Source: Planctomycetia bacterium
Lineage (GTDB): Bacteria > Planctomycetota > Planctomycetia > Pirellulales > UBA1268
Assembly: GCA_026401035.1 (NCBI GenBank)
Contig: JAPLNR010000072.1
Coordinates: forward strand, 1 to 64,000
Direction of reading: 5' to 3'
Length of the DNA: 64,000 nucleotides
In this document: in pieces, positions 2,798 through 40,728 of the stretch
Position numbering within the stretch: the first letter of the stretch is position 1
Layout: every line of letters begins with the position of its first letter
The notes under the pieces: generated by a model
Told to the model about the DNA's origin: nothing
Database searches by the model: none
Seen by the model: only the letters and a program-made list of their open reading frames with translations
Translations under genes and position numbers: made by a program

Positions 2798-3820
2798 TCA
2801 GGCGGCAGCCCGGGAGAGGAGCGCGGCGACCGACGCGACGACGCGGTCGACCTCGATGCCCCCCATCGCGACGGTGTCGGTCTTGCGCTGTTCCCATGCC
2901 GGCCGCAGCGAGACCGGCGGTTCGACCGCCTGGTGAATCGATCCGTAGGGTCCGTTCCGCTTCGCCGGCACCGGACCGAAGAGTCCGACGCAGGGGGTGC
3001 CCACCGCGGCGGCCAGATGGAGGGGGCCGGTATCGCTCGAGATGAAGACCCGCGCGAGGCGGCAGAGTTCGCCGAGATCGGTGAGGCTCGTCTGCGGCGC
3101 CAGGATCGCGGCGTTGCCGGCGAGGTTCGCGATCTTTTCGGCGGCCGCCCGCTCCTGGCCGCCACCCCAGACCACGATCGATTGGAGTCCATGCCGCTGG
3201 TGGAGCGCACGGGCCACCGCGGCGAACCGTTCCGCCGGCCAGATCTTCGACGGCCAGCCGGCGCCGGGATTGATCATGGCGGGCGCCGCGGTGAACCGCT
3301 GCGTGACGAACCACTGCTGCATCCGCGCATGACTCACGGGCCACCGTGGCATGTCGAACGTGGTCCCCGGCTCATGCACGCCGAGAGCCCCGAGCAACTG
3401 GCAATGACGATCGACGACGTGCGCTGCCGTCGTGACGACGGGATGCGTGTAGAACCGCCAGGCCTGTTCGCGGGATTCGGGCCGGGCGTAGCCGATCCGC
3501 ATGCGACTGCCGGAAAGCCAGGTGGGAATCCCGCTCTTGAGCAGTCCCTGGAGATCGATCGTCACGTCGGGAGCGAAGTCGAGCAGTTGGCGCCGCAGCG
3601 AACGGACAGCGCCGAGCGACTTGAGCCAGCCGCGCGGCAGCCGAAAGAGGTGGTCGATGGCGGGGTGACCGGCGAGCACGTCGCCGGCGCGGCCCTCGAC
3701 GACCCAGCCGATCGTCGCCCGCGGAAAGGCCCGCTTGAGCGCCACCGCCGTGGGCACGCCGTGCAGCACGTCGCCGATGGCGGAGAGTTTGACGATGACG
3801 ATGGAGCGGGGCGCGTTCAT
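2798..3820 (-). CDS. Glycosyltransferase family 9 (heptosyltransferase-like)
   Basis: This 340-residue GT9 enzyme would transfer a sugar, in known members ADP-heptose, onto a lipopolysaccharide core at the inner face of the cytoplasmic membrane. The N-terminal Rossmann start (SIVIVKLSAIGDVLHG, residues 6-21) and the C-terminal donor-site motif SSDTGPLHLAAAVGTPCVGLFGP are both clear and typical of the RfaC/RfaF group. Planctomycete lipid A cores differ, so the exact donor and acceptor are open. It converges with ligA, with 49 bases between the stops, and reads towards it. The start at 3820 is the first ATG after a leader that can form a GGGGATTTT...AAAATCCCC stem. Confidence 0.85.
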   Translation of the reverse strand: MNAPRSIVIVKLSAIGDVLHGVPTAVALKRAFPRATIGWVVEGRAGDVLAGHPAIDHLFRLPRGWLKSLGAVRSLRRQLLDFAPDVTIDLQGLLKSGIPTWLSGSRMRIGYARPESREQAWRFYTHPVVTTAAHVVDRHCQLLGALGVHEPGTTFDMPRWPVSHARMQQWFVTQRFTAAPAMINPGAGWPSKIWPAERFAAVARALHQRHGLQSIVVWGGGQERAAAEKIANLAGNAAILAPQTSLTDLGELCRLARVFISSDTGPLHLAAAVGTPCVGLFGPVPAKRNGPYGSIHQAVEPPVSLRPAWEQRKTDTVAMGGIEVDRVVASVAALLSRAAA

Positions 3821-3922
3821 GGGGCGGGGATTTTTTCGCGATGCCGCCGGCGAAGCAAGGCCAGTTTCGCGGAAAATCCCCCTCGGCCATGAAAGCCGTG
3901 ACGACCGCCCTCCGGAAAGTGG

Positions 3923-3940
3923 GACAGGCTTCAGCCTGTC
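3923..3940. repeat. 18-bp palindromic repeat (copy 2)
   Basis: An exact copy of GACAGGCTTCAGCCTGTC, lying upstream of the glycosyltransferase gene and not at a stop codon. With the degenerate copy near 4136 it forms direct repeats on either side of structured element A. Confidence 0.85.
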
Positions 3941-3961
3941 ATGGCCTCGCCTGTGCTGACA

Positions 3962-4092
3962 ACCCGTATTGGTCGCCGGCGGCAGAAGTCTCCTTCGCGC
4001 TGCATTTTCTCCGCTGACGACCTACGGAGCTGCTGACCTCAGGAGGTCGAAAATGCAGACGCTCGTCGAGCTTCAGCCGACCGCCTCCCCAG
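3962..4092. repeat. Structured dispersed repeat, copy A
   Basis: This 131-nt element is shared with copies at 17644 and 38005. It folds into one long nested hairpin. The outer helix pairs 3975-3988 with 4071-4085. The middle helix pairs GCG-CTGCATTTT (3997-4008) with AAAATGCAG-a-CGC (4050-4062). The inner helix pairs CGACCT (4018-4023) with AGGTCG (4044-4049). A nine-base conserved bulge (ctccgctga) separates middle and inner helices on the 5' side. The element lies about 70 nt downstream of the stop of the minus-strand gene at 4165. Confidence 0.75.
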
Positions 4093-4164
4093 CAAGTGGC
4101 TTCACGCAAAACTCGAGCATTCTGCCGGAAAGTAGGGCGGGCTTCAGCCTGTCATGCCGGCGGC

Positions 4165-5220
4165 TCAGAGCCCGGCGAGCTGGCAGAGCATCGCGTCGGC
4201 GACCGTCTGCGGGCAGCTCCAGACGAGATAGAAGAGCGACTCGCGGACGAGCCGTTCGGCGGGGTGGCCCGCCACGAAGCCGGCCCCCTTCGAGGCGGTG
4301 AGCGCCGCCTGAGCGGCGCGGATGACGAGGCTGTTGGCGTCGCCGCGGAGGCGGTCGCGGGCTTCCGGGTCGATGCCGTCACTGGCGGCGGTGGCAAGCC
4401 GGGCGGAGAGCGCCAGCGTTTCTGCGCGGAGCCCCGCCGCGATCGGGGCGAGTGCGGGCCGGCCGTCGGCTTCGTGGTCGAGCAGCGCGAGTGCGGCGCG
4501 GCTGCTGCCGAGGGCCAGGGCCGTGGTCGCCAGGCCGCCGGTCCGCACACCGCCTCCGGCCGGGGCGATCACGTCGGCGGGGCGGACGTTATGAAAGGCC
4601 ACGCTCGAGGTGCGGCTGCCCGAGAGCGCGAGCATGTCGAGGGGCGGGGCGATGTCGAGGCCCGGAGAATCGGTCGGCACCACGAAAAACAGTTGCGTGC
4701 CCCTGTCGGTGACGGCACCGGTCACGATCGTGTCGCAGGCATCGGCTCCGGTCACCCACGGGCAGTTGCCGGTGAGCCGCCAGCCGCTGCCGTCTTGGGT
4801 GGCACTGAGGGCCGGCGCGGTCAGGTGGCGGCGGCTTGTCGTGAGGTGCGAGATGCCGACGGTGGTGAACGACTCGCCGCGGGCGAGCGGCGGCAGCCGT
4901 ACGGCACGAACATTCGGGGCACCGGCGGCGATGATCCGGCAGGCGCTCGCCCATTGCGTGAGGGCAAGCGCGGTCGTCAGGCAACTCGTGGCGATCGCGG
5001 TGAGTGCGCCCAAGATCGCGGGCTCGTCGGCCGCCGTGCCGCCGCAGTCGGCGGGCAGGAAGGCGGCGAGCACGCCGGAGCGGGCGAGCAGCGAAAATCC
5101 GCCGCTCTGCCAGGGGCCGTCGCGGCTGGTCGCTGCCGAACGCTCGGCGAGTGCTGCACAGAGGGAATCGAGCGCGGCTGCGTCTGGTGGCAACCGATCT
5201 GAGGAAATCATGCACGGCAT
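4165..5220 (-). CDS. Acyl-CoA dehydrogenase-like flavoprotein
   Basis: This 351-residue protein has the acyl-CoA dehydrogenase fold: an N-terminal helical domain (residues ~1-110), a middle beta domain with WVTGADACDTIVTGA in the FAD-binding position, and a C-terminal helical bundle. Known relatives oxidise acyl-CoA esters or act as acyl-ACP or flavin-dependent oxidases. The end of the protein (HPAERLVRESLFYLVWSCPQ) aligns with the family region where the catalytic Glu of a YEG motif is normally found, and here reads WSC. Dehydrogenase chemistry is therefore uncertain. A second possible start, M4, lies at 5211. It is divergent from the phosphorylase gene. Confidence 0.65.
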   Translation of the reverse strand: MPCMISSDRLPPDAAALDSLCAALAERSAATSRDGPWQSGGFSLLARSGVLAAFLPADCGGTAADEPAILGALTAIATSCLTTALALTQWASACRIIAAGAPNVRAVRLPPLARGESFTTVGISHLTTSRRHLTAPALSATQDGSGWRLTGNCPWVTGADACDTIVTGAVTDRGTQLFFVVPTDSPGLDIAPPLDMLALSGSRTSSVAFHNVRPADVIAPAGGGVRTGGLATTALALGSSRAALALLDHEADGRPALAPIAAGLRAETLALSARLATAASDGIDPEARDRLRGDANSLVIRAAQAALTASKGAGFVAGHPAERLVRESLFYLVWSCPQTVADAMLCQLAGL

Positions 5221-7561: not shown

Positions 7562-7619
7562 AACGGCTTGTCCCAACCCGGCTACGGCTTTCGCGCTGTC
7601 GCCGCAAATAGCCCAATCC

Positions 7620-7761
7620 GGCTTCGGACTACCCGTGCCCCGTCGCCGGACGTTCGCTACGGGCATCCATGCCCTTCGCTCACTCGATGCTGCCCGCGCT
7701 TCGCCATCCTGGCTGCGCTTGGCAGCAACGCCGGCTCCTGGGGCACGGGTAGCCCGAAGCC
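7620..7761. repeat. 142-nt intergenic inverted-repeat structure
   Basis: Arms at 7620-7641 and 7740-7761 are complementary at 21 of 22 positions. The stem can continue through GCCGGaCGTT (7645-7654) paired with AACGCCGGC (7727-7735). Inside it are two further hairpins: GGGCA/TGCCC at 7661-7674, and GCTGCC-c-GCGC (7689-7699) paired with GCGC-tt-GGCAGC (7715-7726). The result is a three-way junction. No protein-coding signal is seen. It could be a structured RNA or a mobile-element end. Confidence 0.6.
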
Positions 7762-7788
7762 TCCCGAAGGGGGTGAACTGCAGAAAGA

Positions 7789-8091: not shown

Positions 8092-9852
8092 CTATTTTTG
8101 TTTACGGCTGAACTCGAGTTCCGCCTTCCAGCGTTCGAGTTGTTTTGCAGCCTCGGCCTCGTCCGCCTTCGTGGCCGCGACTTCCGCGGCAGATGTCTCG
8201 ATCAGCTTGCGGGCCTCATCGACAGCCTTCTGGGCCGCGGCGGACTGCGACTCGGCGACCTGCATCGCATCGGCTGCGGTCCGCGCCTTTTCAGTTGCCG
8301 CTCTCTCCGCGGCAGCGGTCCTTTCGAAGACGGCCGCGGCGGCCTTGAGTCGCTCGTCCAGACGCGGTGGATTCGTGTCGGGCGTACCCACGACCGTGCC
8401 GGTGTCGATGTCGAAGGCCGTCAGCGTGCCGCCGAGGTCGCCCGCCAGCAGCCGTCGGCCGTCGCTCGTGGCCGCCACCCGCAGAAAGATCTCGGGCGGC
8501 CGGCCGGGCGGCGGCGGATAGTCGCGATCCCGCGTGCCATCGGCCTTCCAGGTTGCCACCTTTTTGTCGCGGCCACCGCTGGCGAGCCGGCCGTCGACAA
8601 GCCAGCACACGCTTTGCACGCCGCCGGGGTGCGCCTCCCACTCCTTCATCTTGTCACCGGTCTTCCGGTCCCAGAGACGAATCCGCCCGTCTTCGCTCGC
8701 CGTCGCGAGCACCGCGCCGTCGCTCCGCCACGACACGGCCGTGATGCCGCCGCCGTGCCCTTTGAGCACCGCATGCTCCCGCGCGCCCCGCGTCTCCCAG
8801 AGAAACGCATTGCCGGCGCGATCGCCGCTGGCGAGGAGCTTGCCGTCGGGGGAAAATTCCACGGCCGTGATCCAGTCGGTATGCCGGCGGATCTCGGCAT
8901 CGATCCCGCCGTCGGCCGTCCGCACGATCCGCACCACCTTCTGCGGGCCTCCGAGCGCGACGGCCTGCTGGTCGGCCGTGACGTCGGCCGCGAGCACCTG
9001 GTCGAACTCGTCGCCCAGTTCCGCGACCCGCGCGGCCGTGGCCACGTCCCACGCGACCACGCGGCCGCTCTTAGCCCCCTGGCCGCCACCCGCCACGAGC
9101 AGCTTTGCGTTGCGAGAAAACCGCAGCGTTTTCACGTCGCCCTCTGGAAATGGAAGCACGCCGAGGAATGCGAGGGTGGATGTGTCGTAGAGGAGCACCT
9201 GCCGCCGGCCGCCGACCGCGGCGACCGTGCCGTTGGGCGAGGTGGCGAGCGCCGTGATGGCCAACGGCCGGGAGCCATGGGTTTCCACGTCGAGCGCCAG
9301 CCGCGGCGGCATCACGGGCGGCCCGTCGGGCACGATCGGCGACTGCAGGTCGAGCGCCAGCGTTGCGGCTGGCTGCTTCGCGATCGGCTTGCCGCCGGCC
9401 CTTTCGATCGCCCCGCCCGCGATCCACTTCCGGATCGTGTCGAGCATCTCCTGGGGGATGCGGTCCGACTGCGGCGGCATCTTCGGCTCGGATGCATGGC
9501 TCGCGAGTTGCCAGAGATAAGAGCCGTCGGCATCTCCCGGCGCGATGACCTCCCCCGAGGAGCCGCCGGCCAGCGCCTGGCTGTGCGATGTGAGGTCGAG
9601 GCCGCCCTGTTTCTTGTCGGCGTTGTGGCAAGAGCAGCACTTCTCACGGAAGATCGGCAGCACGTGCTCTTCGTAGGTCGGGGGCGTGTCGGCCGCGCGG
9701 GCGAACGCGTACGACATCGCCCAAAGAGCGACCACGGAGAGCGAGCCCGTCCAGCCCGGCTTGGGGATGGCAAAAATTTCGTCGCGGCGGCCGAACGCTC
9801 CGCGAGCGTTCGCCGATCCCCTCGCCTTCACGTGTCGATCGGGGGCAGTCAT
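8092..9852 (-). CDS. PSCyt1 haem domain plus WD40 repeat protein
   Basis: This 586-residue exported protein has a hydrophobic signal segment near residues 34-53, a planctomycete cytochrome C (PSCyt1) domain with CCSCH at 72-76, and then WD40 repeats (for example HTDWITAVEFSPDGKLLASGD and HGGGITAVSWRSDGAVLATASEDGRIRLWD). It ends in an Ala/Glu/Lys-rich coiled coil of about 90 residues. The function of such proteins is not established. It is the last gene of a four-gene operon, starting 17 nt after the DUF1549/DUF1553 stop. The ORF track extends to 11031, but that part lies antisense or out of frame over the neighbour. The N-terminus is uncertain because codons 13-21 overlap an inverted repeat (CGAACGCTC-CGC-GAGCGTTCG). 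Confidence 0.8.
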   Translation of the reverse strand: MTAPDRHVKARGSANARGAFGRRDEIFAIPKPGWTGSLSVVALWAMSYAFARAADTPPTYEEHVLPIFREKCCSCHNADKKQGGLDLTSHSQALAGGSSGEVIAPGDADGSYLWQLASHASEPKMPPQSDRIPQEMLDTIRKWIAGGAIERAGGKPIAKQPAATLALDLQSPIVPDGPPVMPPRLALDVETHGSRPLAITALATSPNGTVAAVGGRRQVLLYDTSTLAFLGVLPFPEGDVKTLRFSRNAKLLVAGGGQGAKSGRVVAWDVATAARVAELGDEFDQVLAADVTADQQAVALGGPQKVVRIVRTADGGIDAEIRRHTDWITAVEFSPDGKLLASGDRAGNAFLWETRGAREHAVLKGHGGGITAVSWRSDGAVLATASEDGRIRLWDRKTGDKMKEWEAHPGGVQSVCWLVDGRLASGGRDKKVATWKADGTRDRDYPPPPGRPPEIFLRVAATSDGRRLLAGDLGGTLTAFDIDTGTVVGTPDTNPPRLDERLKAAAAVFERTAAAERAATEKARTAADAMQVAESQSAAAQKAVDEARKLIETSAAEVAATKADEAEAAKQLERWKAELEFSRKQK

Positions 9853-9869: not shown

Positions 9870-12326
9870 TCAGTGATTGAAGATGAATTCGGGAGAATTG
9901 AGCAGCGCCCAGAAGACGTCTTCGAGCGCCTGCGTGCGGTCCGGCGCGTCGAGCACGGCGACCACCGTCTCGATCCGTTCCCGCTCCGTCGGTCGGCGGC
10001 AGTAGCACCGCACGAACAGGTTCTCGACAATTTCGCTGTCGGGCAGGCCGTCCTTGATCCACCGGGCTACGAGGCCCCCCTGCCGGATGCGTTCGTTCGC
10101 GGCATCGCCGTTCAGGAGATGCAGGGCCTGCGACAGATTGGGGTCCATCCGCACGGCACAGCTGCAGACATCCTCGCGGGTGGCGCGGCCGAATGTCGTG
10201 AGAAAATAGTTCGTCGTCCGCCCGTCGGCCACCTGCACGGCGCGGGCCCCCAATGGCAGGCCCGGAAACTTGTTCTTCGTGCCCGTCACCTCCGCCAGCA
10301 CGTCGAGCAGCACCTCGGCGCGGACTCGCCGCACGGCCGCGTGCGAGAAATTCGTATCGTCGAGCCGGTTGGTGTCGTTGAGGTCGCACGACCGCTGATA
10401 GGTCTGCGAGAGAACGATGTCGCGGACGAGCTGCCTGAAGTTCCAGCCCGACGCGGCCAGCCGCCGGCCGAGCTCGGCGAGCAAGGGGCCATTGGAGGGC
10501 GGGTTGCTCACCCGCGCGTCGTCCGGCTCGTGCACGATGCCGCGGCCGAAGAAGTGCGTCCAGGCCACGTTCGCCACGTGTTTGGCGAAATAGGGATTGT
10601 CGGGAGCCGTTATCCAGGCCGCGAGCGCCTCGCGGCGGTCGCGGTCGGTCACCTTCGGCACCGCCCCGCCAAGAAACTTCGGTGGCACGGTGGCCCCCGT
10701 CACCGGATGCTTCATGTCGCCCGAGCCCGAGTCGTAGACGATGGTTTCCCGCGGGTCGGCCCCGCGCTTGCGGGCGATCTGCTTGAAGAAGGCGGCGAAG
10801 CCGTAATAGTCGTCCATCGTCCAGCGGTCGAACGGATGGTTGTGGCACTGGGCGCACTGGATCCGCATGCCGAGGAAGGCCTGGGCCACGTTTTCGGAGA
10901 GCTTGAGCGTGTCGCGCTCGAGCTGGAAATAGTTGGTGGGCGGATGTTCGAATGTGCCGCCCGACGCCGTGATCAGGTCGCGAATCATTTGGTCGACGGG
11001 CACGTTGGCGGCGATCTTCCGGTCGAGCCACTGGTGGTAGAGATTCGCCCCCTTCGGGCTGACATCGTTGCCGCTGGAGCGAATCTGGAGGATCTCAGCC
11101 CAACGCATCACCCAGAGCTCGACGAACTCCTTCCGCGTGAGGAGTTCATCGACGAGGCGGGCCCGCTTGTCGGGCGCGGTGTCGGCGAGAAAGCCGGCCC
11201 GCTCCTCCGGCGTCGGCACGAGGCCGACGAGATCGACCGTGGCGCGGCGGAGAAATGCCTCGTCATCGCAGAGACCGCTGGGGGCGATCCGCAGCTGCGC
11301 GAGCTTCTTGTCGACCAGATCATCGATCCAGCGGGATTCCGTCGCCGCCGCCGTCGCGTCCGCCGCGGCTGGAAACGTGAACGGCAGGTCTTTCGGAATC
11401 ACGACCAGTGGCGTGCCGACGGTGATCGTGTCGTAGCGGGCCATGATGAAGGCCTCGCCGCGGCTACCGCTGGTGACGACGCCAGCGGGCGATACCTTGG
11501 CCGTGGGATCGTTGTTGGAGCCATACCAGCAGAGGTCGGTGACGTCGCGGTCGGTGCCGTCGGCAAACCGAGCCACGGCGACGAGCGGCTGGACGAGGCC
11601 GCTGCCGGCGAGCAGGGCCGTGGAGGGATACAGATCGAGGGCGACGAGTTGCAGCGGCGGAAGCGGATCGTCCAGGCCGCCGGCCGCGATCCAGCGGACG
11701 AGCGTCTGCGCGAGGCCACTGTCGGCCTCGAACCGCTTGCCGCCGGTGTGTGGCACGCTGCCGAGCGCCTTCTGCACGAGCAGGCTGCCGGCGGGATCAC
11801 CCGGATCGATGCGACGTCCGGGGAATTCACGCGTGATCCGCTGGTAGTCGCCCGCGGGATCGAAGCCGAAGAGCGAAAGCCGGAAACCGTCCTTGCCGCG
11901 GGCGGCGCCGTGGCAGCTGCCCATGTTGCAGCCGGCCCGGGCGAAGACCGGCATCACGTCGAGCCGAAACGAGAGCGGCGGCTCCGACGATGCGGAGACG
12001 ACCTTGAGCGGAATCTCCCGCACATGGCCGGCATGCTCGACGCGGATTTTCCCCACGCCGTCGGCCAGCGGCCGCAGGCTGTTCGTGTCGATGGCGACGA
12101 GCCGAGCGTCGGAGGGCGTGAACGCGGCGGCCGCCGTGACGTCTTCCGTGCGGCCGTCGGCATACACCGCCTGCACGATCAGCCACTGCCGATCGCGGGC
12201 TGAGTCGAGCTGCACCTGCGGCGGATAGACCTCGATGGCAACGGGCTCGTCGGCATGGGCATTCGCGAGAGTGAGGAAGAGGAACAGCGAGATCGAAATG
12301 GAGATCGAGCGAACAAGATTCCTCAT
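9870..12326 (-). CDS. DUF1549/DUF1553 exported cytochrome-like protein with Ig-like N-terminus
   Basis: This 818-residue protein carries a signal peptide (residues 1-25), a bacterial Ig-like (BIG2-type) stretch at ~28-110, a PSCyt-like motif CNMGSCHG (133-140), then DUF1549 (around RWIDDLVDKKLAQLRIAPSG) and DUF1553 (around REALAAWITAPDNPYFAKHVANVAWTHFFGRG). A second haem-like CAQCH lies at the end of the DUF1549 part. These families are abundant in planctomycetes and have no proven biochemical role. Its ATG overlaps the stop of the preceding PPC gene by four bases (ATGA), which indicates translational coupling. The next gene follows after 17 nt. Confidence 0.88.
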   Translation of the reverse strand: MRNLVRSISISISLFLFLTLANAHADEPVAIEVYPPQVQLDSARDRQWLIVQAVYADGRTEDVTAAAAFTPSDARLVAIDTNSLRPLADGVGKIRVEHAGHVREIPLKVVSASSEPPLSFRLDVMPVFARAGCNMGSCHGAARGKDGFRLSLFGFDPAGDYQRITREFPGRRIDPGDPAGSLLVQKALGSVPHTGGKRFEADSGLAQTLVRWIAAGGLDDPLPPLQLVALDLYPSTALLAGSGLVQPLVAVARFADGTDRDVTDLCWYGSNNDPTAKVSPAGVVTSGSRGEAFIMARYDTITVGTPLVVIPKDLPFTFPAAADATAAATESRWIDDLVDKKLAQLRIAPSGLCDDEAFLRRATVDLVGLVPTPEERAGFLADTAPDKRARLVDELLTRKEFVELWVMRWAEILQIRSSGNDVSPKGANLYHQWLDRKIAANVPVDQMIRDLITASGGTFEHPPTNYFQLERDTLKLSENVAQAFLGMRIQCAQCHNHPFDRWTMDDYYGFAAFFKQIARKRGADPRETIVYDSGSGDMKHPVTGATVPPKFLGGAVPKVTDRDRREALAAWITAPDNPYFAKHVANVAWTHFFGRGIVHEPDDARVSNPPSNGPLLAELGRRLAASGWNFRQLVRDIVLSQTYQRSCDLNDTNRLDDTNFSHAAVRRVRAEVLLDVLAEVTGTKNKFPGLPLGARAVQVADGRTTNYFLTTFGRATREDVCSCAVRMDPNLSQALHLLNGDAANERIRQGGLVARWIKDGLPDSEIVENLFVRCYCRRPTERERIETVVAVLDAPDRTQALEDVFWALLNSPEFIFNH

Positions 12327-16214: not shown

Positions 16215-17588
16215 CTATTCGTCGAACGTGCGCTTGCCACGCAGCAGGTGGTGGTAATGCTGGGCGAAGCGGTGGGCCTCGTCGCGGACATATTCCAGGA
16301 GCCGCAGGGAGTAGGAGTCGCGGGAGAGCCGCAGCGGCTCGCTCCTGCCCGGCAGGAAGACCTCCTCCTCGCGCTTGGCCAGCGAGATGATGCACGGCGG
16401 CTCGATGCCGAGTGATTCGACGGCGTCGAGCGCCGCCGACAGCTGCCCCTTGCCGCCGTCCACCAGGAAGATGTCGGGCAGCGAACCACCCTCGCGAGCG
16501 AGCCGCGCGAACCGTCGCGACACCACCTCGTGGATGCTCTTGAAATCGTCGATCCCGTCGACCGTCTTGATGCGATACCGCTTGTAGCCCGGCTTGAATG
16601 GCAGGCCATCGATGAACTGCACGAGGCTGGCCACCGTTTCGTTGCCATGCAGGTGGGCGATGTCGACGCCCTCAATCACCCGCGGCGGCTTCTTCAGGCC
16701 GAGCACCTTCTCGAGGCCCGCGAGCCCCTTCTTCGGATCGACGAGAAACACCTCCGGCTGGACGTTCTCCTCCAGGTCGCCACGGTCACCGAGCGTTTCG
16801 AGCAGCCGGATCTCATCCCGCAGCCGGGCTGCCTTCTCGAACTCGAGTTTGCCCGAGGCCGCGAGCATGTCCTGCTTCATCTCCTCGAGGAGCCGTTTCT
16901 TGCCCCCCTCGAGAAACGTCTTCAGCCGGTTGATGTCCTTGCGATACTCCTCCTTCGAGATCCGCAGGTTGCAGGGGGCCGTGCACTGGTCGATCGACGC
17001 GAGCAGGCAAGGGCGAAACCACCGCCACTGCTCGTCGTCGGCATCGATGTCGAGCGTGCAGGTGCGAAACTTGAAAATCCGCTGCAGCACCACGATCGCA
17101 CCCCGCAGGCTGCCGGCGCTCGTGAACGGTCCGTAGAGCTTCACGCCCTTCTGCCGGGGCGTGCGAGTGAACTCGACCCTGGGGAAATCCTCGTGGGTCG
17201 TAATCTGCAGATAGGGAAACGTCTTGTCGTCCTTGAGGTCGGAGTTGAACCGCGGCTGCACGTCCTTCACGAGCCGGCTCTCGAGCAGGAGCGCGTCGAC
17301 CTCGCTCTCGGCCTCCAGGTAATCGATGTCGCGGATCTCCTGCACGAGATCGGCCGTGCGGCGGTCGAGTTCGGCGGCCTTCAGGAAATAGCTCCCCGCC
17401 CGCGACCGCAGGTTTTTCGCCTTGCCGACGTAGATCACGCGGCCGGCGGCATCCTTCATGAGATAGACGCCCGGCGTCTGGGGAAACGTCTTCACCTTCT
17501 CCGCGGCAGCCGAACGATCGAGGCTCCCCGTCGCGTGGTCGGTGTCGGCGGGAGTGGTTTCGGCCCGCGGGTCGGCTTCAGCGCTCAT
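16215..17588 (-). CDS. uvrC: Short UvrC excinuclease subunit
   Basis: UvrC makes the dual incisions of nucleotide excision repair with UvrB. The GIY-YIG domain (TPGVYLMKDAAGRVIYVGKAKNLRSR), the UvrBC contact region (KLEFEKAARLRDEIRLLE) and the RNase H-like endonuclease domain (GVDIAHLHG, LVDGGKGQL, RDEAHRFAQHYH) are all present. The protein stops right after the last motif. At about 457 residues it lacks the C-terminal helix-hairpin-helix domain of the usual ~600-residue UvrC. The ORF extends to an ATG at 17627; I prefer the ATG at 17588 because the extra residues have no family match. The stop is TAG next to a GGCC-rich hairpin. Confidence 0.87.
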   Translation of the reverse strand: MSAEADPRAETTPADTDHATGSLDRSAAAEKVKTFPQTPGVYLMKDAAGRVIYVGKAKNLRSRAGSYFLKAAELDRRTADLVQEIRDIDYLEAESEVDALLLESRLVKDVQPRFNSDLKDDKTFPYLQITTHEDFPRVEFTRTPRQKGVKLYGPFTSAGSLRGAIVVLQRIFKFRTCTLDIDADDEQWRWFRPCLLASIDQCTAPCNLRISKEEYRKDINRLKTFLEGGKKRLLEEMKQDMLAASGKLEFEKAARLRDEIRLLETLGDRGDLEENVQPEVFLVDPKKGLAGLEKVLGLKKPPRVIEGVDIAHLHGNETVASLVQFIDGLPFKPGYKRYRIKTVDGIDDFKSIHEVVSRRFARLAREGGSLPDIFLVDGGKGQLSAALDAVESLGIEPPCIISLAKREEEVFLPGRSEPLRLSRDSYSLRLLEYVRDEAHRFAQHYHHLLRGKRTFDE

Positions 17589-17643
17589 GGCATCGATTGT
17601 ACCGATGGAGCCTGGGGGCCGCTTCATTCACAAGCGGTCTGCC

Positions 17644-17774
17644 ACCCGCATTGGTCGCCGGCGGCAGAAGTCTCCTTCACGCTGAAATCTCTCCTTTGAC
17701 GACCTACGGAGCTGCTGACCCCAGAAGGTCGAGATTTCAGACGTTCGTCGAGCTTCCGCCGACCGGCTCCTCAG
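17644..17774. repeat. Structured dispersed repeat, copy B
   Basis: This 131-nt copy has the same nested hairpin as copies A and C. The middle helix is ACG-CTGAAATCT (17679-17690) with AGATTTCAG-a-CGT (17732-17744). Compared with copy A it differs on both strands at four paired positions, and pairing is kept each time. The inner CGACCT/AGGTCG (17700-17705, 17726-17731) and the outer GCCGG-CGGCAGAAG helix are conserved. It lies about 50 nt downstream of the phosphoglucomutase stop and upstream of uvrC. Confidence 0.78.
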
Positions 17775-17823
17775 TATCGGGAGGTGGAAAAGGCAAATGG
17801 TGGCTGTCACCTTTTTCGCTGCA

Positions 17824-19698
17824 TCACACTCCCGCGAGGGCGCGGAGGTCTTTCTCGAGCGCGTCGAGCCGCTGGGTGAGCGACTGCTTCACGGCCGGGA
17901 GCTGGGCGTTGGTGCAGGGGGGGGCGGCGGCGAACAGATAAAACTTGATCTTTGGCTCGGTGCCGGAGGGCCGCGCCGCGACCGCGTTGCCGAGCGCGGG
18001 AAAGTGGCCGGGCGTGCCGGAGCCGGCGTCGGGCAGGCCCGCGAGGTCGAAGATCACGAGATCCCCTTGGGCGCCCGTGAACGCGACGGGCTCTGTGGTT
18101 GGAGTAAATGTCGTAAGGCCGCCGTAATCACGGACGCGGACGACGTCGAGGCCGCCGAGTTGCGCCGGCGGCTTCGCCCGCAGCGCCGCCATGATGTCCC
18201 GCATCCGGTCCATGCCCGCGGCGCCCGGGAGCGTGATCGCCACCTGCCGCTCGAGGTGGCAGCCGTGCAGGCAGAAAAGCTCGTCGAGTTTTTCGTGGAG
18301 TGTCTTGCCCTGGGTCTTCAGGGCGGCTGCCAGTTCCGAAATCAGCAGGGCGGCCACGCTCGCGTCTTTGTCGCGAACATGCGTGCCGGCGAGGTAGCCG
18401 TGCGACTCCTCGCAGCCAAACGCAAACCGCTCGGGGCCGATCCGGTCGATTGCCTGCCCGATCCACTTGAAGCCCACCTGCAGGTCGTCGACCACGGCCG
18501 CGGCATATCCCGCGGCGATTCGTCGCACCAGGCCGGTGGTGACGAGCGTGGTCACGGCGGTGTCCGTGGGCTTCAGCACACCGCGGGCCTGGCGGCTCGA
18601 AAACACCCAGTCGACGAGGAGCCCGCCGATCTGATTGCCCGTGAAGGTTTTCCATGGGCTGCCCGGCTGAGCCGTGAGCGGCGCCGCGGCGCCGAGCCGG
18701 TCGCAATCGGGATCGCTCGCGAGCACGAGGTCGTCGCCCCGGGCCTTGGCCTCGTCGATCGGCCCGCCGAGCACGGCCGGATTCTCGGGGTTCGCCACGT
18801 GGCCCGGCACGTTGGGGAAGTCGCCGTCGGGTTTTTCCTGCGGTCCGTAGAGGCGGAGTTTCTTGAACCCGGCGCCGTCCAAGACCGGCACGACGGCGCT
18901 AGCGCCCACGCCGTGCAGCGGCGTGTAAAGAATGGAGACATCCCGCGGACCGGGCGTGGCTTGTTTCAGCACCGCGGCAACGAACGCCGGATCGATCTCC
19001 TGTTCGACGAACTGCACGCGGCCTGCTGCCACGCCGGCCTCGAAGGGCTCCCGCCGCACCTGGTCGACCGTCATCACGCGGTCGATGATCCCCTTGTCGT
19101 GCGGCGGCAACACCTGCACGCCGCCGGCCCAGTAGACCTTCACGGCATTGTCGCTCGGCGGATTGTGGCTGGCCGTCACCATGATGCCGCAGGTGCTGCC
19201 CGTGTGCCGCACGGCGTAGGAGAGCTCTGGCGTGCTGCGGAACCCGCGCAGGAAAAAGATCTTGAAGCCCGCCGCCAGCAGCACCTCGGCGCAGAGTTTC
19301 GCGAAGTGCTCGGAGCGGTGCCGCGTGTCGTAGGCGATGGCGCAGGAGGGCGTCGCGGCCGACTCGAGCACACCGGCGGGGAGGCTGCGGATGTAATCGG
19401 CCAGGCCCTGGGCGCTCTCGCCGATCGTGCGGTCGTTGATCGCGTTGGATCCGACCGGGTACATCTTCCCGCGGCGGCCGCCGGTGCCGAACGGAATCAC
19501 GGTCCAGTAGGCGTCGTCGAGTTCCTTCCAGAGACCGCGGTCGATCTGCGCGGCGAGTTCTCCCGCAAAGTCGGCATAGCGGGGCTGTGTGAGCCAGTCG
19601 CGCATCGTGCGGGCGGAGTGGTCGGTGAGCGTGCCGGCGGCGTGGGCCGCGGCGATCGCGTCGAGGCGGCGGGAAAGGTCGGGGGACGGCGTCTGCAT
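17824..19698 (-). CDS. Phosphoglucomutase/phosphomannomutase, PgcA-like
   Basis: This 624-residue phosphohexomutase interconverts hexose-1- and hexose-6-phosphates. The phosphoserine loop VTASHNPP (Ser at 177), the metal loop ASDPDCDR, the sugar-binding loop CEESHGYL and the phosphate-binding loop RPSGTEPKIKFY are all intact. Its length and the N-terminal extension match the large bacterial/eukaryotic PGM2-like (PgcA) group, so glucose-1-phosphate is the most likely substrate. That would link GlgP to glycolysis. It is divergent from a second mutase gene, with 57 bp between them. Confidence 0.9.
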   Translation of the reverse strand: MQTPSPDLSRRLDAIAAAHAAGTLTDHSARTMRDWLTQPRYADFAGELAAQIDRGLWKELDDAYWTVIPFGTGGRRGKMYPVGSNAINDRTIGESAQGLADYIRSLPAGVLESAATPSCAIAYDTRHRSEHFAKLCAEVLLAAGFKIFFLRGFRSTPELSYAVRHTGSTCGIMVTASHNPPSDNAVKVYWAGGVQVLPPHDKGIIDRVMTVDQVRREPFEAGVAAGRVQFVEQEIDPAFVAAVLKQATPGPRDVSILYTPLHGVGASAVVPVLDGAGFKKLRLYGPQEKPDGDFPNVPGHVANPENPAVLGGPIDEAKARGDDLVLASDPDCDRLGAAAPLTAQPGSPWKTFTGNQIGGLLVDWVFSSRQARGVLKPTDTAVTTLVTTGLVRRIAAGYAAAVVDDLQVGFKWIGQAIDRIGPERFAFGCEESHGYLAGTHVRDKDASVAALLISELAAALKTQGKTLHEKLDELFCLHGCHLERQVAITLPGAAGMDRMRDIMAALRAKPPAQLGGLDVVRVRDYGGLTTFTPTTEPVAFTGAQGDLVIFDLAGLPDAGSGTPGHFPALGNAVAARPSGTEPKIKFYLFAAAPPCTNAQLPAVKQSLTQRLDALEKDLRALAGV

Positions 19699-35863: not shown

Positions 35864-37906
35864 ATGATCATCTCCACGAACTGGCTGGCCGATTACGTGC
35901 AGGTGCAGACCACGACGGAGCAGCTCGTCGAACGGCTGCTCATGTCGGGGCTCAATCATGAGTCGACCGCGACGGTCGGTGCCGATACGGCCGTGGAGAT
36001 CGAGGTGACGAGCAACCGCTCCGATTGCCTCGGGCACATCGGCGTGGCCCGCGAGGCCGCGGTGCTCTTCGCGCGGCCGCTCCACGTGCCCGATCCGCGG
36101 CCGCTGGAAGGGGGCGGCCGGGTGGCCGAGAGCATCGCCGTCGAGATTCGCTCGGCCGATGTCTGTCCCTTTTATACCGCCCGCGTCATTCGCGGTGTGC
36201 GGGTGGGGCCGAGCCCCGCCTGGCTCGTCGAGCGGTTGGCGACGGTCGGCGTCGAGAGCGTCAACAACGTGGTCGACATCACCAATTACGTGATGCTCGA
36301 GTGCGGGCAGCCGCTGCATGCCTTCGATCTGGCCAAGATCCGCGGTGGCCGCATCGTCGTACGGCGGGCCGCGGAAGGGGAGCCGTTTACGGCGATCAAC
36401 CACAAGACCTACACGCTCACCGGACAGATGTGCGTGATCGCCGATGCCGCCGGCCCCGTGGCCCTCGCCGGGGTGATGGGGGGCGCGGAGAGCGAAATTT
36501 CAGCCGCCACCACCGACATCGTCATCGAATCGGCACAGTTTGCGCCCCTGGCGGTGCGGGCCGCCGCGCGGGGGCTCGTGCTGGCGAGCGGTTCGTCCTA
36601 CCGCTTCGAACGCACCCCCGATCCCGCGGCCGTCGACTGGGCCAGCCGCCGCGCCGCGGCGCTGATCCTCGACAGCGCCGGCGGCACGCTTGAACGCGGC
36701 GTCGCCGAGGCGGGCACGCTCGCCTGCGCACCGGCCACGATCGACCTGCGGGCAACGCGGGTTCAGGAAGTGCTCGGAATCGACATCCCCTCGGAACGGC
36801 AGCAGGCGATCCTCACCGGTCTCGGGTTCGTCGCCGTCAAGCCGCTGGCCGACGGCCCTTCGCGGTGGCAGGCCCCGACCTGGCGCCGCGATGTCTGGCG
36901 GGAGATCGATCTCGTCGAAGAGATCGCCCGCATCGAGGGCTACGACAAGGTGCCGGAGGATCGGCCGATCACCGCCCGGCCCGTCGAACTCTCGCCGCGC
37001 GAGCAGGCGATCCGCACGGCATCGGCCGTGCTCGTGGCCGCCGGGATGTGCGAGGCCCTGACACGCAGCGTCGTCAGCGTCGCCATGGAAGTGACGCAGA
37101 GCCCCTGGGGCGCGGCCCCGCCGCTCGTCGTGTCGCCAGCGCTCGTTCGTGGTGCCGACCGCCTGCGGCGCACGCTCCTGCCCAGCCTGCTCGAGGCCCG
37201 CGCGGGCAATGTCGCCGTCGGTGCCCCGCATGCCGAACTGTTCGAGGTGGCCCGCGGCTACATCGGCCGCGATTCAGACCACAGGCCCGACTCGCCGATT
37301 CAGGAGCCGCTGCTGGTGTCGTTGGTGACGGGCGGCGCATTCACGGCCGCCAAGGTCCGCGCCGAGGCGGTGCTTGCGCGACTCGGTGTCGCGGCCACGT
37401 ATCGGCCGATCGATCTCGACCTCTTTGCCCGCGGCCGCTCGGCGGAAATCCTCCTCGAGCGACCGGGCCAGCCGGCCGAACGGATCGGTGTGGTGGGAGA
37501 ATTTTCAGCGGCGGCGCTCAAGGCCGCGGGGCTCGACACGCCGGTCAGCGGTGCGGAACTGCGGCTGGACCGGCTCGAATTCGCGGTCGGCATCGAGAAG
37601 AAGCTCCGGCGGCCGAGCGACTTCCCGGCCGTGGAGCGGGACGTGAACCTCGTCGTCGACGACGCCGTGGCGTGGGGCCACGTCGCGGCCGCCGTCAGCG
37701 AGACAGCCGGCGATCTGCTGGAGCAGTGCCGGCTGGTGCAGGTGTGGAAGGATGCCGATCGTCTCGGAGTCGGCAAGAAAAGCCTGGTCATATCGCTCCG
37801 GTTGCGGAGCGCCACCGGAACGCTCTCCAGCGAAGACGCCAACCGTACGGTCGCGGCCGTCGTTGAAGCCTGCGGCCGACAGGTCGGCGCCGTGCTGCGG
37901 AAGTAG
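35864..37906 (+). CDS. pheT: Phenylalanine-tRNA ligase beta subunit, lacking the EMAP-II domain
   Basis: At 680 residues this PheT is about 110 shorter than the ~795-residue E. coli protein. The N-terminal B1 strand (MIISTNWLADYVQVQTTTEQLVERLLMSGLNHES) runs after only a few residues into the second half of B1 (AVEIEVTSNRSDCLGHIGVARE). The tRNA-binding EMAP-II-like B2 domain is therefore absent. B3/B4 editing, B5, the catalytic-like core and the C-terminal anticodon-binding domain (RRPSDFPAVERDVNLVVDDAVAWGHV) are intact. Loss of B2 is seen in some bacterial PheT proteins and should not abolish aminoacylation. The TAG stop begins a degenerate palindrome (TAGGGTGGCCTTCAGGCTGCC). Confidence 0.94.
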   Translation: MIISTNWLADYVQVQTTTEQLVERLLMSGLNHESTATVGADTAVEIEVTSNRSDCLGHIGVAREAAVLFARPLHVPDPRPLEGGGRVAESIAVEIRSADVCPFYTARVIRGVRVGPSPAWLVERLATVGVESVNNVVDITNYVMLECGQPLHAFDLAKIRGGRIVVRRAAEGEPFTAINHKTYTLTGQMCVIADAAGPVALAGVMGGAESEISAATTDIVIESAQFAPLAVRAAARGLVLASGSSYRFERTPDPAAVDWASRRAAALILDSAGGTLERGVAEAGTLACAPATIDLRATRVQEVLGIDIPSERQQAILTGLGFVAVKPLADGPSRWQAPTWRRDVWREIDLVEEIARIEGYDKVPEDRPITARPVELSPREQAIRTASAVLVAAGMCEALTRSVVSVAMEVTQSPWGAAPPLVVSPALVRGADRLRRTLLPSLLEARAGNVAVGAPHAELFEVARGYIGRDSDHRPDSPIQEPLLVSLVTGGAFTAAKVRAEAVLARLGVAATYRPIDLDLFARGRSAEILLERPGQPAERIGVVGEFSAAALKAAGLDTPVSGAELRLDRLEFAVGIEKKLRRPSDFPAVERDVNLVVDDAVAWGHVAAAVSETAGDLLEQCRLVQVWKDADRLGVGKKSLVISLRLRSATGTLSSEDANRTVAAVVEACGRQVGAVLRK

Positions 37907-38253
37907 GGTGGCCTTCAGGCTGCCGTGCCTCCGCTTTTAGCCCGCTTTTAGCCCGCTTGTAGGCAGCTTGTAGGCAGCTTTGTTTGTTGCCCAGTGGGGG
38001 CTACCCGCATTGGGAGCCGGAACGGCAGAAGTCGCCTCACACGGCATCTTCTCCTTTGACGACCTACGGCGATTCATGCCCCAGAAGGTCGAAGAAGCCT
38101 CATGTTCGTCGAGCTTCTGCCGATTCCGTCTCCTCAGCATCCGCAGCATTGGGGGCATCTGCAGCTTTGGGGGCATCCGCAGCATCGGGAGCTTTGCTGC
38201 GTTGGGAGCTTTGGGTTCGGAGAGACTGGGCTTTGGCCTGAGTCGGGCGGGGT
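37907..38253. other. 347-bp repeat-rich gap between convergent genes
   Basis: No gene is supported. It starts with a degenerate palindrome at the pheT stop, then tandem CGCTTTTAGCC and CTTGTAGGCAG units (about 37931-37980), then structured repeat copy C (38005-38139). It ends with imperfect ~20-bp tandem units rich in GGGGGCATCYGCAGC (about 38138-38215) directly before the end of the DUF11 gene. Confidence 0.65.
38005..38139. repeat. Structured dispersed repeat, copy C
   Basis: This is the most divergent copy, 135 nt. Inner CGACCT (38062-38067) and AGGTCG (38088-38093) and the outer CGGCAGAAG/CTTCTGCCG helix are kept; here the position mismatched in A and B is an A-T pair. The middle helix is GGC-a-TCTT (38045-38052) with AAGA-a-GCC (38094-38101), so the sequence is new but the pairing position is the same. 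It lies about 115 nt downstream of the DUF11 gene stop. Confidence 0.7.
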
Positions 38254-40728
38254 TCACCGGTCCGAATAGACCCGCGTGATCTCTTCCTTCGTGATCGGTG
38301 CCGCGTGGTCGTCGCTCGTCAGCTGGACCTGCACCCGCTGGTCGCCTTCGCGGTGACCGCGGACGCGGACGCGGAAGATGGCTTCCTCGGCGGGGGCGAG
38401 TTTGGCCAGCGGCTCGAAGCCGACGCTGAGATTCTCGATGCGATGGGCGGCGGGCCCCTTCGCTTCGATCGGCTCCAGTTCGCCAAGCATGGTGGCCGTG
38501 AGCCGCACGCCGCTGGCCGACTTCGTGCCCTGGTTTCGCACCCGCACGATGTATTCGGTGAGGCCGCCAACCTCGATCGGATCTTCGCTGTCGGTGACCT
38601 CGAAGGAGATGGCGGCGAGGCCCTCGACTTCGAGCGTGTGCGCGACCTGATCGGAGAGGCCATCGGCGGAACGGGCCGCGGCCACGATCTTCTGCGGTCC
38701 GAGGTCGATCGGCATCACGACCACTTCGCAACTGCCGGTTTCGGCGGCGGGCAGTTCCTCGAGGTTCCAGAGCACGCGGTGACCGCGCTCGTCGTAATAA
38801 CCGGCGTTGTTGGCCCGCACGAATTTCACGCCCGGCGGAAGCTGGGCGGCGAGTTCCACCGCCTTGGCCGGCGCCGTGCCGGTGTTGGCCATCGAGATCA
38901 CGCAGGTGGCGGGCCGCTGCAGGTAGCGGCGGGTGGGCATCACCACGGCGATTTCGAGCGTCGGGGCCGTCACCTCGATCCGCAACTGGTGCTCCACCTC
39001 GATCTGGCCGTCGGCGCGGGCCACCAGGCGCACAGTATGGACACCGGGGCCGGTCGAGCCGAGCGCGAGATCGATCGTGCGCGAGCCGCCGGGCTGCAGC
39101 TGGCCGACGTCGAATTCCAATTCGCGGCCCGACTTGTGAATGAGCTGTTCCGGGAGGGCCCCCTCGAGCACCACGCCGGTGGCCACGCCCGTGCCGGGGT
39201 TGGTGATCTTGATCGACACGTTCACATCCTTGCCGATCAGGATCGGCTTGGGGTCTGACATCTCGAGCCGCAGGGCGGGCTTCGTCGCGCGGGATCGCAC
39301 CGAGGCGTCGGCGCGGAACGTCACGCTGGCGACGCTGCCCACGTCGCCCTCCGTCGTCGGCATCAACTCCATCGCCACGCGGGCCTGTCCGCCGGGGGGC
39401 AGGGTGCCGAGCATCCAGACGAGGTCGCCGTTGCCACCCGATCCCGTCGCGGGATTTGTCGGGCTGGCCGGGGGCGTCGTGGCGACGAGCGTGGTGCCGT
39501 AGGGTACGGAGTCGCGGAGGAGGCATTCGTGTGCCGTGGCGCTGCCGACATTCCGCACGAGAATTTCATAGCGTGCCGCCTTGCCCACCTGCACCTCCCG
39601 CGGCCCGCGTTTTTCCACGGAGAGCTGCGGCGTCTGCACGCCCTCGAGTTGCATCGGGCCGGGACGGCCCTGGCCCGTGGAACCACCACCGGCTGGCGCA
39701 GTGTCCGCACCAGACCCTGGGAGTGGCGGATTGCCGCCGGCACCCGGCAGCGACGCCGCGCCGAGTCCGGGAACGAGCGGGGGCGCTGCGGCAAATGGAA
39801 CTGCTGCCGCCAGTTGCGGACGGGCCGGGGCGGCAGGCCCGTTGCCCCGCAGCGGATTGCCGGTCACTGCAGCCGCAGGCACGGTCGTCGCGAGCAGGTC
39901 TGTGGAAGCATGTGGCATCGGCGCCTCGGGATCGGCGGCGGAGTTTGGCCGCGGGAACGATGCGGGCGGGTCGATGTCGCGGGAGAATGCCGTTGCGGGT
40001 GCTGCGGCGGCGGGAACTGAAGCAGCGTTTGCGGCTGCGGTCTCTGGCTGGGCGACGAGATCACCCACATCTTCGGGGAGCGGTCGCGAATCGGCAGCCG
40101 CTTCTGTCTCCGCAGCGGCCACGGCTGCCGGCGAAATCGGCTGTGTCAGGAACGGATTGGTGGGGGCCGCAGCCGGCTCCTCGGCGAGGTCGTTCGCCGG
40201 CTCGGATTCAGTCGAGGCCGCCGGCTCCCCGATGGTCTGGATGTCCGACTCCGGGGCAATCGTCTCGGCTGACCGGCCCGGTTCCGCCGACGGATTTTCA
40301 TCTGCGGGGGGGGCCGACTCCAACGCCGGCTCTTCACCGTTTGCAAACCGTGAGAATCGGGACGAACTGGCCGCGGTCGGCACGACGTCGCCCGGCGTAT
40401 CGAGCGACGTCGTCTGGATCGGATAGCGGTCGCCGTAACGGTCTGTGGCACCGGGGCCGTCCGCTGTCGGCCGGGGTGCACTGCCCGCGGAGGGCGCGAA
40501 GCGGCCAGGCTCCGCCTCCTGCTCCGCTGAATTTTCCGGGGCAAACGCGGCTGCGATCGGCGGTTCGAGCGACGGATCATCGGCCTGCCGAGCCCCGGAG
40601 CGACCAAGCCCAAGAGCCAAGACAGCGACGAAACCGGCGCATCCGCTGGCGGCGGCGCCCAGGACGAAGGGCAGATTGGATCGCTTTCGGGGAACGACGA
40701 GATCCTGGCGGGTAGGTCGGTCAGACAT
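38254..40728 (-). CDS. DUF11-repeat surface protein with Pro/Ala-rich stalk
   Basis: This 824-residue protein has a short cytoplasmic N-terminus (MSDRPTRQDLVVPRKR), one membrane segment (NLPFVLGAAASGCAGFVAVLALGLG) and about 330 residues of low-complexity Ala/Pro/Glu sequence. Several DUF11/COG1361-like beta-sandwich repeats run from ~370 to the end (PQLSVEKRGPREVQVGKAARYEILVRNVGSATAHECLLRDSVPYGT; KPILIGKDVNVSIKITNPGTGVATGV; PIEVGGLTEYIVRVRNQGTKSASGV). Related repeats occur in planctomycete and chlamydial envelope proteins. It is probably anchored and extends across the periplasm. The gene converges with pheT, and its stop lies inside a tandem-repeat tract edge. Confidence 0.82.
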   Translation of the reverse strand: MSDRPTRQDLVVPRKRSNLPFVLGAAASGCAGFVAVLALGLGRSGARQADDPSLEPPIAAAFAPENSAEQEAEPGRFAPSAGSAPRPTADGPGATDRYGDRYPIQTTSLDTPGDVVPTAASSSRFSRFANGEEPALESAPPADENPSAEPGRSAETIAPESDIQTIGEPAASTESEPANDLAEEPAAAPTNPFLTQPISPAAVAAAETEAAADSRPLPEDVGDLVAQPETAAANAASVPAAAAPATAFSRDIDPPASFPRPNSAADPEAPMPHASTDLLATTVPAAAVTGNPLRGNGPAAPARPQLAAAVPFAAAPPLVPGLGAASLPGAGGNPPLPGSGADTAPAGGGSTGQGRPGPMQLEGVQTPQLSVEKRGPREVQVGKAARYEILVRNVGSATAHECLLRDSVPYGTTLVATTPPASPTNPATGSGGNGDLVWMLGTLPPGGQARVAMELMPTTEGDVGSVASVTFRADASVRSRATKPALRLEMSDPKPILIGKDVNVSIKITNPGTGVATGVVLEGALPEQLIHKSGRELEFDVGQLQPGGSRTIDLALGSTGPGVHTVRLVARADGQIEVEHQLRIEVTAPTLEIAVVMPTRRYLQRPATCVISMANTGTAPAKAVELAAQLPPGVKFVRANNAGYYDERGHRVLWNLEELPAAETGSCEVVVMPIDLGPQKIVAAARSADGLSDQVAHTLEVEGLAAISFEVTDSEDPIEVGGLTEYIVRVRNQGTKSASGVRLTATMLGELEPIEAKGPAAHRIENLSVGFEPLAKLAPAEEAIFRVRVRGHREGDQRVQVQLTSDDHAAPITKEEITRVYSDR

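Follow-up and report, generated by a model that had tools for sequence, protein, structure and literature searches.

A previously unnamed family of folded, dispersed repeats of about 90-155 nt in a planctomycete lineage

Rickettsia palindromic elements (RPE) are repeats of 105-146 bp that form a long hairpin and occur both in intergenic regions and fused in frame within protein genes (PMC2229807). ERIC, IRU, RU-1 and their kin are hairpin repeats of about 127 bp that are located near coding sequences, reach tens to hundreds of copies and can be transcribed (PMC2229807, PMC10969869). The REP sequences of the GTAG and CGTC families are 20-40 bp in length, with a stem of 5-13 bp and a GTAG or CGTC tag at one end, and REP palindromes are already known in Planctomycetes (PMC3733652).

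Copies A, B and C of the element described here, found in the window (the whole 64,000-nt stretch of planctomycete DNA that was analysed), are members of a previously unnamed family of folded repeats of about 90-155 nt. The element resembles RPE in being a long hairpin that is found in intergenic regions and in frame in a conserved protein gene (rlmKL), whereas it differs in its restriction to planctomycetes, its GC-richness and the single host gene in which an in-frame copy has been demonstrated; a covarying double G.A module and constrained resident stems further set it apart from RPE by description. With ERIC, IRU, RU-1 and related MITE-like repeats (Correia, RUP), it shares a hairpin structure, a location near genes and a high copy number, but no target-site duplication (TSD) was found, it has neither TA termini nor a matching IS beside its copies, and its interior domains are swappable. 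Like REP sequences with RAYT, it is a dispersed hairpin at gene 3' ends, with a GGAG/GTAG-like tag ahead of many copies; however, it is several times longer (78-155 nt), has stems of more than 20 bp and is not associated with Y1 transposases. Assignment to the REP class was rejected on size and stem length and on the lack of correlation or linkage with Y1 (RAYT) genes. Dispersed structured RNAs of the Rfam type share its covariation-supported fold and conserved non-canonical steps, yet it matches no Rfam family. The element probably works in the manner of ERIC, RPE or BOX, and relatedness to them is not claimed. Integron attC sites were considered from the sequence only, and neither GTT...AAC core boxes nor gene-cassette arrays were noticed.

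Copy B, the feature under study, is a type I long form located at 17644-17774 on the minus strand (128 bits). A PGM/PMM gene (17824-19698, minus strand) stops 49 nt ahead of it, and a UvrC-like gene (16215-17627, minus strand) starts 16 nt beyond it. Copy A (3962-4092, minus strand, 118 bits) is also a type I long form; it has REP-like palindromes of the GTAGGACAGGCTTCAGCCTGTC type on both sides, and its neighbours are an acyl-CoA dehydrogenase-like gene (4165-5220, minus strand) and a GT9 glycosyltransferase gene (2798-3820, minus strand). Copy C, a long form with the outer stem GGAATCGG/CCGTTCC (38003-38137, minus strand, 130 bits), lies between a convergent pair composed of a DUF11/CARDB gene (38254-40728, minus strand) and a pheT-like gene (35864-37906, plus strand). 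Copies A and B are 88% identical, C matches them at 76-79% identity, and a blastn search within the window yielded no further comparable match. All three copies reported in an earlier note on this DNA are present, and its coordinates for A and B are exact, whereas the best fit of copy C lies 2 bases from the 38005-38139 given there. The note overlooked a fourth copy, a short and degraded form at 9745-9830 on the minus strand (37.6 bits, E 3e-7 for the window), which is located 39 nt past the stop of a PSCyt2/PSD1 gene (9870-12326, minus strand). Gene calls agree with the described siting of A-C: each lies 50-120 nt beyond the point where a minus-strand gene stops.

The conserved fold is a long hairpin on the minus strand of the window. 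For copies A, B and C, the minus-strand fold exceeds in stability both the plus-strand fold and the folds of dinucleotide-shuffled sequences (z = -2.5, -4.8 and -3.3, respectively, against the shuffles). In copy B, the basal helix P2 consists of 9 bp between a 5' arm (CGGCGGAAG, 17753-17761) and a 3' arm (CTTCTGCCG, 17662-17670), all arms being on the minus strand, and is nearly invariant in 151 copies. The adjoining double tandem G.A module, which is conserved in the same copies, has a 5' strand (17743-17752) comprising a bulged C and then TC-GA-C-GA-AC, and a 3' strand (GTGAAGGAGA, 17671-17680). The middle helix is formed by the arms CTGAAATCT (17732-17740) and AGATTTCAG (17682-17690); three of the four double changes between A and B fall in this helix. 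The 3' strands of the module and of P2 are supported by the conservation and covariation alignments, and the 3' arm of the middle helix by the comparison of double changes between A and B. The outer helix, the bulge and the inner helix CGACCT/AGGTCG, all proposed earlier, exist, but predicted folds offer CCTTC/GAAGG as a competitor to the inner helix, and other subtypes have a different helix in its place.

In 151 distinct copies, the basal module CGGCGGAAG-C-TC-GA-S-GA-GC pairs with GC-GA-S'-GA-GA-CTTCTGCCG. Both tandem G.A steps are retained in 137-149 of these copies, although overall module percentages are biased upward because the pattern used to extract the copies prescribed a large part of the module, allowing up to one substitution per half. 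The central pair between the two steps is never mismatched: 88 copies have C-G, 62 have G-C and one has T-A. Mismatches were detectable at this position because the pattern allowed C/G/A on one side and G/C on the other. As the opposite strand would give T.C mismatches instead of G.A, what is conserved is a particular single strand, either RNA or ssDNA. In 48 distinct arms, 97.6% of cells are paired and nine pairs show changes on both sides; 0 of 500 shuffles reach the observed values on the main measures, and sliding the partner abolishes the signal. A full-length alignment agrees with the arm set and contains 16 pairs with double changes, including pairs of the middle helix. The four double-sided changes between A and B that had been listed before (G-C/A-T, C-G/A-T, T-A/A-T and T-A/C-G) were recovered exactly. 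Together with the 151-copy module and the covariation in both alignments, they bear out the claim that structure is preserved while sequence drifts.

The family is restricted in its distribution. Blastn of the own genome gave 49 matches, and a covariance model trained on 30 diverse copies gave 105 matches there at E <= 0.01 (about 101 after four antisense double hits were dropped). Within the same family, this model detected the element in 63 of 72 genomes, which represent 11 of 12 genera. In an order-wide sample, 58 of 66 in-family genomes were positive, compared with 0 of about 231 genomes of other families. Copy number varies from 0 to about 100 within this one bacterial family. Scanning 84,980 species genomes for an exact pattern found the element in MAGs only, mostly labelled Planctomycetota, with several from lakes and a few under generic labels; two pattern scans of viral contigs gave 0 matches. 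Rfam (release 15) had no match in the window at the gathering threshold, in line with the earlier statement that no named family fits, and at E up to 1 it gave four matches over eight loci, none of them credible as a family match to the element. In the literature on repeats in planctomycetes and freshwater planctomycetes, no paper on the element was found.

Several types of outer stem occur and the interiors are swappable; interior variants include a 23-nt additional hairpin, and a short form of 93 nt is also present. The five same-genus sister genomes carry only the short form (about 85-115 nt), with between 5 and 45 copies per genome. Sister species have a constant clamp, GGCGAGGGGGTCGGCGAAC...GCCGCCCCCGAGCC, around single, double or multi-branched interiors. 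Three loci in two sister genomes (L402, L405 and L409; G001 and G004) have the outer clamp of the short element with different, multi-branched interiors, and L402 occupies a locus at which a sister species carries the standard interior. The upstream tag is not uniform: GGGAG, occasionally GTAG, precedes the short form, and long type a has GAGGAG.

Near-identical copies, arrays, a variable copy number and sister loci without A and B all speak for copying. In sister species, near-identical short copies with sharp ends lie at unrelated sites, as their flanks show. Tandem arrays with spacers of about 9 nt are found at C40:1317/1458/1599 and C19:58275/58416/58558. The sister genomes are without copies A and B and have shorter intergenic regions there, so that net insertion is visible; no exact empty site was found in the sister intergenic regions compared, because their flanks are too diverged. 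The element has MITE-like traits (small, non-coding, multi-copy and hairpin-forming), its terminal inverted repeat being the hairpin itself. Identification as a classical MITE was rejected on the TSD, as direct repeats at the ends were no commoner than with shuffled flanks in four subsets. No recurring flanking gene or transposase was found beside the copies, only orthologous loci and common paralogues, and neither a host gene nor an IS accounts for them, an origin that the earlier note had named as refuting its reading. Its suggestion of a structured RNA or a non-autonomous mobile element named the right class.

Copies cluster close to stop codons. Both neighbours were called for 87 intergenic copies of the own genome; convergent genes flank 38 of these and divergent genes one, while copies between co-directional genes comprise 27 in sense and 21 in antisense orientation, counts that rest on a home-made gene caller. 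Over all genomes, the convergent excess is 59 versus 10 (p 1e-9), whereas no strand preference is seen (53 sense, 42 antisense, p = 0.30). Position is therefore constrained and orientation is not. The idea of a 3'-UTR element holds in that copies are found at gene 3' ends, but the sense-strand placement of A-C is no general rule, as copies occur in either orientation and some lie inside a coding gene. Orientation is unrelated to local GC skew as a sign of replication-strand bias, although the skew itself is weak here.

One own-genome copy lies in frame within the linker of an RlmL-RlmK fusion gene, which we take to be rlmKL. In-frame linker copies are present in five genomes of two genera, and the own copy is nearest to those of the other genus (154-175 bits, versus 113 for the best other copy), which indicates a shared, old insertion. 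Between the genera, this copy shows 2-4 differences over 86 stem sites and 11-14 over 37 apex sites; the coding blocks on either side differ by 17-25%, and the linker beside the element aligns poorly or is unalignable. In the rlmKL linker of one sister species (L264, G004), tandem short peptide repeats (EARSGSDGTNGHHH) occupy the place of the element. The stems of two non-coding orthologous pairs are also conserved (0/86 differences for G081/G087 and 3/86 for G014/G023), while other such pairs are less so, with 7, 7 and 28 of 86 stem sites differing. Two of four sister-species orthologous pairs show a C-G/G-C flip of the central pair, for which gene conversion between copies may be the source. 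These patterns are evidence for constraint on the fold of resident copies in place, not merely in spreading copies. Small palindromic repeats are usually regarded as decaying selfish DNA, whereas old copies of this element, including one in an rRNA methyltransferase gene, have stems that stay nearly unchanged across genera while the surroundings drift, and the single pair between the G.A steps flips freely and is never mismatched. The constraint on the stems and the free flip make the question of a selfish repeat or a functional folded element directly testable, and point to a partner that reads the fold in this freshwater bacterial group.

The element is probably a lineage-restricted, non-autonomous family of dispersed palindromic repeats that spreads via a folded strand and whose resident copies likely have a second role. 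The recognised object would be one folded strand consisting of an outer clamp, the 9-bp basal helix, the bulged C, the double tandem G.A (two consecutive steps with a single Watson-Crick pair between them) and an apical domain that can be exchanged. We infer both the mobiliser and the host role. Copies would be duplicated by an enzyme reading the folded strand, and insertions would survive mainly near stops because those in promoters or coding sequences cause damage. Resident copies may also have come to serve a further function, most likely as stable hairpins where transcripts end, in mRNA protection, processing or termination. Against this reading stand the searches, which turned up no mobilising enzyme, TSD or exact empty site, and the strong constraint in old resident copies, which would be surprising in a repeat that is purely selfish.

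The main rival explains that constraint better and the missing strand preference worse. It holds, as a tentative possibility, that the element is a functional structured RNA class acting in cis in transcripts (3' UTR, intercistronic and even coding) as a post-transcriptional regulon, with dispersal secondary and a conserved binding partner such as a nuclease or an RNA-binding protein. The nearly invariant, strand-specific G.A steps are consistent with it, as are the compensatory flips, including that of the S pair at orthologous sites between sister species, the stems constrained across genera in non-coding copies too, and the multi-branched variants sharing the same clamp. The lack of preference for a strand of the flanking genes, the range of copy number within one family and the near-identical bursts in some genomes argue against it. 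The class might be family-wide, with a constant double-G.A clamp read by a conserved protein and swappable apices in about 100 transcripts per genome, and have also become mobile.

It is very unlikely that the copies are REP elements with unusually long hairpins moved by a RAYT (TnpA-REP) tyrosine transposase. Their 3'-end placement and high copy number, the GGAG/GTAG-like tag ahead of many hairpins, the true GTAG-type REP-like palindromes that adjoin many copies and a degraded RAYT fragment in the own genome would suit such a mechanism. However, Y1_Tnp does not track the element, since G006 has four Y1_Tnp and 0 elements and G004, G011, G018, G020, G032 and G079 have many elements and no Y1_Tnp; moreover, no element lies near any of 17 Y1 loci, and the length (90-155 nt against 20-40 bp) and the stems do not fit REP, while the tag is not uniform. 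Mobilisation by RAYT/Y1 is thus largely refuted by uncorrelated presence and unlinked loci. Long imperfect palindromes readily undergo arm-to-arm copying, but it is highly improbable that the covariation arose by mutation alone, through template switching at quasi-palindromes and without selection, as such copying would turn the persisting G.A mismatches into Watson-Crick pairs and would not be expected to flip an already matched C-G pair to G-C.

Other repeats accompany the element. A GTAG-type REP-like palindrome (GTAGGACAGGCTTCAGCCTGTCATG), present at 3940-3965 and 4130-4156 of the window, flanks many own-genome copies, sometimes on both sides, and composites of 240 nt are therefore repeated (e.g., C43:127242-127482 is 91% identical to window 3916-4156). 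The RAYT-type Y1 transposase fragment (L262, C82:113677-113856) lies beside a GGTGGCTGTCACC palindrome, which is also found just downstream of copy B (about 17799-17812). Another dispersed hairpin repeat, about 150 nt long (GGCTACCCGTGCCCC... / ...GGGGCACGGGTAGTCC), is located at 7611-7765 of the window. Dozens of its copies, about 80-93% identical, occur here and in all five same-genus genomes, and one of them appears to interrupt the element at C49.
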